DNA from: an uncultured Bacteroidota bacterium
GTDB lineage: Bacteria; Bacteroidota; Bacteroidia; Flavobacteriales; Flavobacteriaceae
DNA: 64,000 bases
Reading direction: 5' to 3'
Assembly: GCA_902598525.1 (NCBI GenBank)
Contig: CACKBZ010000002.1
Coordinates: 124,001 to 188,000, forward strand
In this document: piece by piece, positions 6,343 to 32,486 of the stretch
Layout of the letters: every line of letters starts with the position of its first letter
Position numbering within the stretch: the first letter of the stretch is position 1
Position numbers and translations under genes: made by a program
The notes under the pieces: generated by a model
Seen by the model: the letters and a program-made list of their open reading frames with translations, nothing else
What the model was told of the DNA's origin: nothing
Database searches by the model: none

Positions 6343-8492
6343 CAAGTTAGTATTTGGAAGTCTAGTCTTCTTTTTACTTGATCGGCTTTTATCAACATTA
6401 CTCTTGTTTTGTCGCCAAGCTGATATTTCTTTCCTGTTTTCTCTCCTACAAACTGGTGATTTTTTTCATCATGAACATAGAAGTCGCCTGGTAGGTCTTT
6501 TGCTTTAACCAACCCCTCACATTTGTTCTCTACAACCTCAACAAACACCCCCCTTGCTGTTACTCCAGAAATAACTGATTCAAAAATTTTTCCTTCTTTA
6601 TCAAGCATATATTTAATCTGCATTAGTTTTACAGAGTCCCTCTCTGCTTTGGTGGCGAGTATTTCCATGTGGGTTGAATGATTACAAAGTGTTTCCAGTT
6701 CATCCGTGCTTATTTTATCATTTTTCAATTCTGCCTCTATGAGTCTATGAACCAGAACATCTGGATATCTTCTAATTGGCGAAGTGAAGTGTGTGTAGTT
6801 GTCGAACGCTAGACCATAATGGCCTATATTTTTTGTTGTGTACTCTGCCTTGCTCATGCTTCTTATCATTAGTGTGTCTATAAGGTTTTGTTCATTTTTT
6901 CCAAATGTGTTTTCTAAAAGTGTGTTTAGGGAATCATTCAGACTGTTCTTATTTAGTTCAAGATTATATCCCAGCCTTTTCACAACCGTTTGCAGGTTTT
7001 TTAGCTTTTCTTCATCTGGTTGATCGTGTACCCTATAAACAAACCTTTCTTTTCCTTTTTTCATTTTTTCTGCCACCCTCTTGTTTGCAAGAAGCATAAA
7101 CTCCTCTATTAATTTGTTTGCGCTTTTTGCTGTTTTAAATACTACTTCTTTGGGGTTGTTTTTTTCGTCTAGCTTAAATTTTATTTCCGACTTATCAAAA
7201 ATAATTGCTCCGTTATTTATTCTTTTTTTTCTTATTGTTTTTGCGACCTGGTTTAGTGTTGTTATCGCATCCACCAAGTTGTTTGTTACTTTTTTTTCTT
7301 TATTTAAAATTGTTTTTTCTTTTGGAATTATTCTCTCTTCGTTTTCAATAATGTGCTGAGCTTCTTCATAGGAAAGCCTGTAGTTAGATTCTGTTATTGT
7401 TTTACCAAACCACTCTTCTAATACCTGTCCATTTTTTTTCATTACAAAAACCGCTGAGAAAGTTAATTTTTCTTCATTTGGCCTAAGCGAGCAAAGGTTG
7501 TTTGAGAGTGTTTCTGGTAACATAGGAATAACTCTGTCAACCAAATAAACAGATGTAGCTCTTTTTTGTGCTTCTTCATCTATTATGCTTCCCGGGGCAA
7601 CATAATGCGAAACGTCTGCTATATGAACCCCTATCTCAAACCTGTCCTTGTCTATTTTTTTAAAAGATATTGCGTCATCATAGTCCTTTGCGTCAACTGG
7701 GTCTATGGTAAAGGTCATTTCCTTTCTCATATCTCTTCTTTTCTTTTCTTCTTCTTTTGATATTTTTTTATCTATTTTTTTTGCCTCTTTCTCTACTTCT
7801 TCTTCAAACTCTGGCGACAATCCATACTCATATAAAATAGAATAAGCATCTAATGAGTCGCTGTCAAACCCAAATGTTTTAACTATTTTTCCTTCTGGTG
7901 AGTTGTTTGATTTTTCCCATTTTTTTATTTCTACCGCTACTGTTTCTCCTGTTTTATAGTTTTTCATTTCCTCTTTTTCAATAAAAAAATCTGTATACAT
8001 TCTTGAATTTCTTGTGTTTACAAAGCCATAGTCTTTGTTTTTTTCAAATACTCCTACAAAAACCGTCTTGTTTCTTTTTAAAACATTTATAACTTTTCCT
8101 TCGTATCTGTTCTTATATTTCTTTTCTCCTACCAAAACTTCCACCTTATCTCCATGTAGCCCTTTGTTAAGGTGCCTGTTTTCTACCATTACATCATCAT
8201 CTAACTCTTCACAAATAACGTACCCTCTTCCTGTGCTTGTTATCTCTAAAACTCCTTCCGCAACTTCACCCAGAACCGCAGGTGCAACGAACTTTCCTCT
8301 CCCTACTTTAATTATTTTTTCTTTTTTTAAGAGGATGTTTAAAATTTTTATAATGTCATTTCTTCCTTTTGTATCATTAACTCCTAAAGAAAAGGCAATT
8401 TGTTTATAATTGAATTCTTTTAAATTAGGGGACGAAATAAGTGAAGATATTTTTCTTTCTAATCCTTTTAATTCTTTCTTCTTTTTACTCAT
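6342..8492 (-). CDS. rnr: Ribonuclease R (RNB family exoribonuclease)
   Basis: FTIDPVDAKDYDDAISF, HIADVSHYVAPGS, HYGLAFDNYTHFTSPIRRYPDVLVHRL and a C-terminal S1 domain. Confidence 0.95.
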   Translation of the reverse strand: MSKKKKELKGLERKISSLISSPNLKEFNYKQIAFSLGVNDTKGRNDIIKILNILLKKEKIIKVGRGKFVAPAVLGEVAEGVLEITSTGRGYVICEELDDDVMVENRHLNKGLHGDKVEVLVGEKKYKNRYEGKVINVLKRNKTVFVGVFEKNKDYGFVNTRNSRMYTDFFIEKEEMKNYKTGETVAVEIKKWEKSNNSPEGKIVKTFGFDSDSLDAYSILYEYGLSPEFEEEVEKEAKKIDKKISKEEEKKRRDMRKEMTFTIDPVDAKDYDDAISFKKIDKDRFEIGVHIADVSHYVAPGSIIDEEAQKRATSVYLVDRVIPMLPETLSNNLCSLRPNEEKLTFSAVFVMKKNGQVLEEWFGKTITESNYRLSYEEAQHIIENEERIIPKEKTILNKEKKVTNNLVDAITTLNQVAKTIRKKRINNGAIIFDKSEIKFKLDEKNNPKEVVFKTAKSANKLIEEFMLLANKRVAEKMKKGKERFVYRVHDQPDEEKLKNLQTVVKRLGYNLELNKNSLNDSLNTLLENTFGKNEQNLIDTLMIRSMSKAEYTTKNIGHYGLAFDNYTHFTSPIRRYPDVLVHRLIEAELKNDKISTDELETLCNHSTHMEILATKAERDSVKLMQIKYMLDKEGKIFESVISGVTARGVFVEVVENKCEGLVKAKDLPGDFYVHDEKNHQFVGEKTGKKYQLGDKTRVMLIKADQVKRRLDFQILT

Positions 8493-30245: not shown

Positions 30246-30440
30246 TTACACAAAATAAAAAAGTTTAATAATGTTAACTTCGAGTGCCTCCGAAATTTTT
30301 AATGCAACGTCAAGCCCGGGAATAAACTTGTTTTTCTCGATTGAAATAATTGTTTGCCGGCTTACCCCAATTTCCGAGGCTAACGCCTCCTGGGTTAAAC
30401 CCTTCCCTTTTCTGTAGTCTTTTACCCTATTAACTAGCAT
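30246..30440 (-). CDS. Single-domain XRE-family HTH regulator
   Basis: RVKDYRKGKGLTQEALASEIGVSRQTIISIEKNKFIPGLDVALKIS; stop codon abuts the Stealth ATG. Confidence 0.92.
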   Translation of the reverse strand: MLVNRVKDYRKGKGLTQEALASEIGVSRQTIISIEKNKFIPGLDVALKISEALEVNIIKLFYFV

Positions 30441-30654: not shown

Positions 30655-31263
30655 ATGAAAAATTCAATCGTTTTAATAGCATTTTTGGGATTGCTATCAT
30701 GCAATATAAATCCTAATAACAACGAGCAAGAAGTTTCAGGTGTTAGTATTTCTGATAACACCTATAATATTGAAACCAGTCAGAGCCAAATTATTTGGAC
30801 TGGTAGAGAGCTGTCAACTAGTTCACATTATGGATCATTGAACTTTGTATCAGGTACTTTCGAGGTTCTAGACGGCGTAATTGTAGGTGGTGAGTTTATT
30901 GTAGATATGACATCTATCAACAATCAGGATATGGAAGGCGGAAGTAAAGAAAGATTAGAAGGTCATTTGAAATCAGATGATTTTTTCTCTGTCGATACAC
31001 ATCCTACTGCTACTTTATCAATCAATAGTTCTGAATTGATTTCAGAGGGAAAATGGAGTATCTCTGCAGATCTTTCAATTAAGGGTTACACTCATCCTGT
31101 CAATTTTGAAATGATTAGTTCTGAACAGGGATGGTCTGCAAATCTTGTATTTGATAGATCAAAGTATGACGTGAGATTTAGATCAGGAACTTTCTTCGAA
31201 AATCTTGGAGATAAACTAATATATGATGATATAGAATTATCCATAAACTTAACAACTTTATAA
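30655..31263 (+). CDS. YceI-family lipoprotein
   Basis: YNIETSQSQIIWTGRELSTSSHYGSLNFVSGTFEV...ADLSIKGYTHPVNFEM; lipobox LLSCN. Confidence 0.92.
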   Translation: MKNSIVLIAFLGLLSCNINPNNNEQEVSGVSISDNTYNIETSQSQIIWTGRELSTSSHYGSLNFVSGTFEVLDGVIVGGEFIVDMTSINNQDMEGGSKERLEGHLKSDDFFSVDTHPTATLSINSSELISEGKWSISADLSIKGYTHPVNFEMISSEQGWSANLVFDRSKYDVRFRSGTFFENLGDKLIYDDIELSINLTTL

Positions 31264-31265
31264 TT

Positions 31266-31349
31266 ATGACTTACGATAGACCTCAGTGTGGATGTGGAAA
31301 CACAAGTGATCCAAACGGTTATTGTGATGGTTCTCACAATAGAAAATAA
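31266..31349 (+). CDS. 27-aa CDGSH-type iron-sulfur microprotein
   Basis: ATG..TAA translates to MTYDRPQCGCGNTSDPNGYCDGSHNRK; C-x-C...CDGSH ligand set. Not in the ORF track (under 60 aa). TAA overlaps the next ATG (TAATG). Confidence 0.8.
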   Translation: MTYDRPQCGCGNTSDPNGYCDGSHNRK

Positions 31350-31894
31350 TGAGTAAGATTCTAGCTTTTGGAGCATCATCTGCTAAAGACTCTATGAATA
31401 AAAAACTTGCCTCTTTTGTAGCTAATAAAATAGCTCCTCGAGAGGCAATTTTAATTGATCTGAATGATTATGAAATGCCAATTTACAGTGATGATAGGAA
31501 AAGAGATTCTGGTATTCCGAAAAAAGCCTATGATTTTAAAAATTTGATAAAGACCTCTGAGGGAATAATTATATCATTTGCAGAACACAATGGATCATAC
31601 ACTGCAGCATTTAAAAATATCTATGATTGGATATCTGTAATTGAAAAAGTAGTGTGGAATAATAAACCTATGCTACTTCTATCAACATCTCCAGGTGCGA
31701 GAGGAGGTAAATCAGTATTAAATTCAGCCTTAGCGAGATTTTCTCAGGAAAGTGAATGGGATATACCCAGTTTTCGATTACCGAATTTTAACGAAAATTT
31801 TTCTGAAGAACTTGGCATAGTCGACAACAAACTAAATGTTGATTTAAATGAACAGATTAAACTCTTTGTTAGTCAAGTTAATGAACACCAGTAA
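31349..31894 (+). CDS. NAD(P)H-dependent FMN reductase-like flavoprotein
   Basis: ILAFGASSAKDSMNKKLASFVA, PIYSDDRKRDSGIPKKAYDFKNLIKTSEGIIISFAEHNGSYTAAFKNIYDWIS, LLSTSPGARGG. Confidence 0.9.
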   Translation: MSKILAFGASSAKDSMNKKLASFVANKIAPREAILIDLNDYEMPIYSDDRKRDSGIPKKAYDFKNLIKTSEGIIISFAEHNGSYTAAFKNIYDWISVIEKVVWNNKPMLLLSTSPGARGGKSVLNSALARFSQESEWDIPSFRLPNFNENFSEELGIVDNKLNVDLNEQIKLFVSQVNEHQ

Positions 31895-32486
31895 CGATTA
31901 AAGTACCACCCCAATCTTTACTTTCTCCGTGGCGCCAAGATTCGACCTTGCTTAATCCAGCATTTTTAAAAAAATTTTTCCATTCAATTTCTGAATACAA
32001 CTTCATAATTGAAATACCACATTCTTTCTGCCAAGAATGAGAGGTTTTGTTTTCCATATAAAAATCTATTCCCATTATTAATCTACCTCCAATTTTTATC
32101 CAATTATTATTAATATGTTTAATAAGGTTGCCTGGGTTTTCAAAATAATAAAAGACTTCCATAGAATGAATTATGTCAGCTTTTTCATTTGGCATCCACG
32201 TTAATAAATCCTCACAATAGTATTTATTTTTGACATCAAGTCTTTTTGCTTTGTCAATCATATTTTTTGAGCCGTCGACACCGATTGCTTTTGAACATTT
32301 TGGATCTTCAGTAACTTTCCTAATAACCCATCCATTTCCACATCCTGCATCTATAAAAGAATACTTTGACAATTTGCTAGATGCAAAATTGATCATATTC
32401 ATTACTGATTGATAATGATGCCTTTCCATTCCTTCATCCTTTCCATTCTGGGCCCATTCACTAAAAACATCAATTGGAGTATTCAT
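31878..32486 (-). CDS. Class I SAM-dependent methyltransferase
   Basis: SFIDAGCGNGWVIRKV...IGVDGSKNMIDKAK...DIIHSMEVFYYFENP. Confidence 0.88.
   Translation of the reverse strand: MNTPIDVFSEWAQNGKDEGMERHHYQSVMNMINFASSKLSKYSFIDAGCGNGWVIRKVTEDPKCSKAIGVDGSKNMIDKAKRLDVKNKYYCEDLLTWMPNEKADIIHSMEVFYYFENPGNLIKHINNNWIKIGGRLIMGIDFYMENKTSHSWQKECGISIMKLYSEIEWKNFFKNAGLSKVESWRHGESKDWGGTLIVTGVH

Follow-up and report, generated by a model that had tools for sequence, protein, structure and literature searches.

Does the short reading frame between a yceI gene and a flavin reductase gene in this flavobacterial DNA encode a selected protein, and is that protein an iron-sulfur protein of the CDGSH type, as the first-pass annotation had claimed? 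The frame lies at positions 31266–31349 (+) of the window, i.e. the whole stretch of 64,000 nucleotides that was analysed, and runs from ATG to TAA. Its 27-residue product is MTYDRPQCGCGNTSDPNGYCDGSHNRK, and position 31266 is the earliest start codon downstream of the preceding in-frame stop. The ATG follows, after a gap of 2 nt, the yceI gene (30655–31263, +; PF04264, 2.1e-25), whose product is a lipocalin-like YceI family protein with a lipoprotein-type signal (LLSC) and has TT1927b and YceI as relatives in the PDB. The TAA (31347–31349) shares 1 nt with the ATG of a gene for a flavodoxin-like NADPH-dependent FMN reductase family protein (FMN/quinone reductase; 31349–31894, +; PF03358, 1.5e-27), the PDB relatives of which are 3u7r, YieF (3svl), the ChrR/YieF chromate reductases and the YhdA azoreductase. 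Retranslation and the gene ends reproduced the coordinates, the sequence and the spacing to both neighbours that had been reported earlier.

A gene for an XRE-type (HTH_3) regulator (30246–30440, −; PF01381, 7.8e-16) is located divergently upstream of the operon; at locus L001, an HxlR gene lies between the XRE-type regulator and yceI. Also upstream, the 3' ends of a Stealth-type gene (PF11380; 29301–30245, −) and a class-V aminotransferase gene (PF00266; 28095–29312, +) share 12 nt. On the other side, the reductase gene shares a 17-nt 3'-end overlap (31878–31894) with a convergent methyltransferase gene (31878–32486, −). A mobile origin of the microprotein gene was rejected, since there was no plasmid match and the phage matches were at chance level.

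Judging from its pattern of conservation, the frame is almost certainly a real, translated gene. For a synteny test within the genus, 25 genomes were searched with the downstream reductase only, without use of the motif. An intact ORF of 26–28 residues is present between yceI and the reductase gene in all 19 genomes that have the reductase, spaced by 1–2 nt from one neighbour and by −4 to +2 nt from the other, and C-x-C-x9-CDGSH is found in 19/19 of these orthologues. The dN/dS (Nei-Gojobori) of the microprotein in this set is 0.147; yceI has a value of 0.177 and the reductase one of 0.162. Variable columns number 8, 8 and 21 of 25 at codon positions 1, 2 and 3, respectively, and the excess of silent change is gone when the same alignment is read in the other two frames. 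A chance ORF is thus ruled out by the synteny in 19/19 genomes and by the dN/dS. Loss of the frame in relatives, which the first-pass annotation had named as the observation that would speak against the gene, did not turn up: the frame is kept at all 19 loci of the genus. Among the matches listed, 15/15 stand-alone copies from Firmicutes (Paenibacillaceae and relatives) have a Shine-Dalgarno-like site no more than 22 nt away from the ATG, compared with a background of 5.8% for all ATGs in the same loci; these 15 copies are related and therefore not independent for this count.

The gene noted earlier does not stand alone: it belongs to a widespread family whose genomic context recurs. Scanning 85,462 species genomes with the pattern C-x-C-G-x-[ST]-x4-G-x-C-D-G-[ST]-H gave at least 119 loci. 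In smaller scans of 100 and of 400 genomes, 0 matches were obtained with a reversed pattern as control. Matches of the loosest pattern that lie out of frame in other genes (L014, L016, L017, L019, L028, L031 and L036) were left out. Together with the loci from the smaller scans, the family comprises at least 148 in-frame members and at least 124 distinct proteins. Stand-alone members of 24–35 residues occur in marine Flavobacteriales (including Polaribacter glomeratus), Spirosoma, Paenibacillus and Brevibacillus, and those of marine Flavobacteriales mostly come immediately after yceI among the matches listed. Members from Opitutae contain two motifs in 54–63 residues. In four further proteins (L009, L030, L066 and L080) the microprotein is fused N-terminally, preceding the YceI signal peptide, and the YceI part of L080 has no alternative start codon. 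These fusions would place the n-region, a predicted metal-binding segment, in the cytoplasm. RicT/PSP1-like proteins of Flavobacteriales, recognised by sequence inspection and not by Pfam, carry CxCGxTxxPxGxCDGSH as a C-terminal tail after a basic linker (L057, 3667–3717, +; L147, about 7069–7119, +). Locus L137 encodes ribosomal protein bS16 (PF00886) with a long acidic Pro-Ala-Glu extension and an x9 CDGSH motif near its end. Genome G022 possesses a second, divergent member of 38 residues, MNNSNLDSNANIYVNVECSCGQTSNPYGICDGTHWSCR, about 10 kb from its yceI-linked copy (L038, contig C1, 135703–135753; L090). At L087 (3099–3439) two differing family members lie about 165 nt apart, of which the first alone directly follows yceI.

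Among the matches listed there are 92 distinct motifs, in which C1, C3, G4, G11, C13, D14, G15 and H17 are invariant, with either T or S at position 6. Most of these positions were preset by the search pattern, and the core is confirmed by the motif-free genus set. Of the positions outside the pattern, position 8 is N or D in 92/92 motifs, and positions 5, 9 and 12 are restricted as well.

The distribution of the family bears on whether the peptide itself matters. The 1-nt stop/start overlap and the gap of 1–2 nt to yceI would also suit a leader or coupling ORF, the translation of which affects expression of the downstream reductase while the peptide is irrelevant. This is hard to credit, since the amino acids are conserved, as the dN/dS indicates, and the peptide also exists on its own, as a tandem and in fusions, frequently without a gene close behind it. 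Conservation at the peptide level outside the operon and the stand-alone copies largely rule out a leader peptide only.

The family appears to be undescribed within Pfam, NCBIfam, the PDB and the open-access literature. The microprotein matched nothing in Pfam and NCBIfam, and a sequence search of the PDB gave weak CDGSH matches only (3tbn/3tbm). No open-access publication was found that joins CDGSH with YceI, with Polaribacter, or with the pair of small proteins and Ribo-seq. Some members of about 30 residues may bear a database label such as 'CDGSH domain protein'. As a result of its short length, the family is overlooked by profile libraries and probably by gene callers.

The putative metal-ligand motif C8-G-C10-x9-C20-D-G-S-H24 (31287–31337, +; 17 codons) leaves 7 residues on its N-terminal and 3 on its C-terminal side. 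Canonical CDGSH domains follow the consensus Phi-C-X-C-X2-(S/T)-X3-P-Phi-C-D-G-(S/T/A)-H and possess a lid-proline and a beta-sandwich (PMC3174974; a similar consensus is given in PMC5859297). With this family (CISD/NEET, PF09360, types 1–7 of Lin et al. 2011) the microprotein shares the 3Cys-1His ligands C-x-C...C-D-G-[STA]-H as well as both halves of the motif, C-x-C-(G)-x-[ST] and CDG[ST]H, with T at the [ST] position in 19/19 of the genus set. In HHalign the micro-family matches canonical CDGSH motifs of the same order with a probability of 96.9% (E 1.4e-10) and a single one-residue gap. Compared with the canonical C-N-C-K-K-T-S-N-P-P-Y-C-D-G-T-H of L196, the motif C-G-C-G-N-T-S-D-P-N-G-Y-C-D-G-S-H found here has one residue inserted and Gly in place of the lid-Pro. 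Hence the spacing is x9 where x8 is canonical, and the proline position deviates, just as had been remarked at the outset. Further differences are Lys, Gln or Arg instead of a hydrophobic residue before Cys1, a length of 24–35 residues in contrast to about 60 or more, and the lack of strands or a sandwich corresponding to the beta-sandwich dimerisation module. AlphaFold (AF2) predicted no strand of 3 or more residues either in a 30-residue member or in the tandem form, at low confidence (mean pLDDT of 68 and 57, respectively), and Foldseek with these low-confidence models found no meaningful match in the PDB. PF09360 does not match the 27-residue protein, and the Opitutae tandem form, which parallels CDGSH types 5/6, reaches an E-value of 0.0094, short of the cut-off.

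Considering the profile match on the one hand and the missing x8 spacing, lid-proline and beta-sandwich on the other, the motif is CDGSH-derived or of shared origin, and we use the name CDGSH-like; from the sequence comparison, derivation from CDGSH is very probable. The original CDGSH-type reading therefore holds for the relation of the motifs and does not extend to those three features. What had been proposed as an unannotated conserved microprotein with a CDGSH-type motif is borne out by conservation at the same position, purifying selection, the fusions, the Shine-Dalgarno sites in Firmicutes and a profile match that is specific for the canonical motifs of CDGSH proteins.

Canonical CDGSH proteins themselves are present in 20/59 genomes of the order (about one third), and none was found above the cut-off in the source genome, the assembly of which is incomplete. 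When 117 other Bacteroidota genomes were searched with the profile of the family, no further microproteins came up, and the weaker matches were canonical CDGSH proteins at 17/18 loci. In a gammaproteobacterial protein of 80 residues (L054), which is a confident member of zf-CDGSH (PF09360, 1.1e-16), one motif has the x9 spacing and another the canonical x8.

Which metal the loop would hold is a separate matter. That the microprotein binds a [2Fe-2S] cluster is somewhat more probable than not. Four ligands also fit zinc, and the beta-sandwich that would shield a cluster is absent. Moreover, the motif is found as a tail on bS16 and RicT-like proteins (L137, L057 and L147), in the manner of SEC-C. 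Consequently, the CDGSH-derived 3Cys-1His loop could be a knuckle for structural zinc or mononuclear iron without [2Fe-2S], acting as a docking or chaperone-like peptide for a partner. We consider this unlikely, because both halves, CDG[ST]H and C-x-C-G-x-[ST], are retained as in CDGSH [2Fe-2S] proteins and the neighbours are redox enzymes. The likeness to SEC-C (PF02810) consists in a short C-x-C-G...C metal knuckle that is often placed at protein ends. The SEC-C ligands, however, end in CC/CH without CDGSH, the microprotein does not show the profile C-P-C-G-S-G-K-x5-C-[CH], and HHalign of the micro-family with PF02810 gave a probability of 3.7% over 6 columns. A zinc knuckle of the SEC-C/SecA type is ruled out by this profile comparison.

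Returning to a [2Fe-2S] protein, the neighbourhood offers hints to its function. Among the matches listed, YceI is encoded directly upstream of 77/148 members and an FMN reductase directly downstream of 24/148, with HxlR and MarR regulators, pirin and DoxX as recurring neighbours; many of the context loci are closely related, so that these counts overstate independence. The linkage to YceI is seen in several genera and, in addition, by fusion. This context points to redox or electrophile-stress defence. In larger Flavobacteriaceae, 40 loci of a homologous reductase were compared, and at 29/40 pirin lies within 3 kb downstream of it. At 3/40 (L261, L266 and L292), in a reductase-MarR-pirin operon, the reductase is directly followed, ahead of pirin, by a CDGSH protein of full size with the type 7 architecture (a ferredoxin-like part plus CDGSH); at a fourth (L287) the ferredoxin-like half alone takes this place. 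With the micro-form here and the full-size form elsewhere, a CDGSH protein of either kind recurs in one redox operon. A related association is known from CDGSH type 5, which is fused to the FMN-binding domain of glutamate synthase (PMC3174974).

A strong partnership with the FMN reductase throughout the family was not upheld, since the micro-ORF is present at 1/28 loci of distant reductase homologues. Neither YceI nor the reductase was found near the copies of Paenibacillaceae and Opitutae. The partnership is thus lineage-specific or covers part of the function only, and for the microprotein at this locus it is proposed tentatively.

Regulator genes of the HxlR/MarR type flank the microprotein gene, and NEET clusters are known to be labile (PMC6006223). 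The peptide might therefore be a sensor of Fe-S status or of redox/NO, or a donor of a labile cluster, which tunes a stress operon or its regulator instead of carrying electrons. This appears distinctly improbable, as the fusions among the matches listed are to YceI, RicT-like proteins and bS16, and none is to a regulator.

We slightly favour a minimal CDGSH-derived microprotein with one [2Fe-2S] cluster per motif, acting as a reductase-fed electron carrier in a redox or electrophile-stress operon. The cluster would be held by Cys8, Cys10, Cys20 and His24, and the microprotein would probably form a homodimer or be docked onto a partner. The Opitutae two-motif protein may be the covalent counterpart of this homodimer; by analogy with NEET dimers, it suggests two motifs working together. 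Electrons would pass from NAD(P)H via the FMN reductase (FMNH2) to the [2Fe-2S] microprotein and from there to quinone, oxygen or an electrophile, while YceI might deal with a lipophilic substrate across the membrane. We infer metal identity, dimer, electron route and stress role, the electron route and the role of YceI being drawn from the operon context and from two precedents. MitoNEET is reduced in vitro by flavin reductase with FMN and NADH (FMNH2) and donates to O2 or ubiquinone (PMC9490426); a flavin reductase gene likewise adjoins the CDGSH-like gene here. MitoNEET, however, is a membrane-anchored dimer of the NEET fold, whereas in bacteria the pairing is a prediction from the order of the genes only. 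The YceI-type lipocalin BcnA and the cytochrome b561 LcoA protect the envelope from lipid peroxidation (PMC9113575) and are likewise a gene pair of a YceI-family lipocalin and a redox partner in envelope/oxidative stress. Here, in contrast, the partners would be a cytoplasmic flavoprotein and a CDGSH-like peptide instead of cytochrome b561. The YceI step is the weakest of the scheme: YceI is an exported protein and the microprotein carries no signal for export, and the micro-ORF is missing beside most homologues of the reductase.

We give even chances to a new class of natural [2Fe-2S] proteins of 24–35 residues without the NEET beta-sandwich, distributed over at least three phyla and used in redox-stress operons as free-standing electron carriers or as clip-on carriers on YceI, RicT-like proteins and bS16. 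If a cluster is bound, these proteins would be near the lower size limit of genetically encoded Fe-S proteins and among the smallest natural ones. They would then serve as naturally occurring models of minimal Fe-S peptides and of how the CDGSH domain arose, with the bare loop either predating or postdating the beta-sandwich. The family is directly testable, since it is present in cultured Polaribacter and Paenibacillus. A CDGSH-like peptide tied to YceI and a flavin/quinone reductase would also offer an assay route into YceI operons and into bacterial CDGSH electron transfer.
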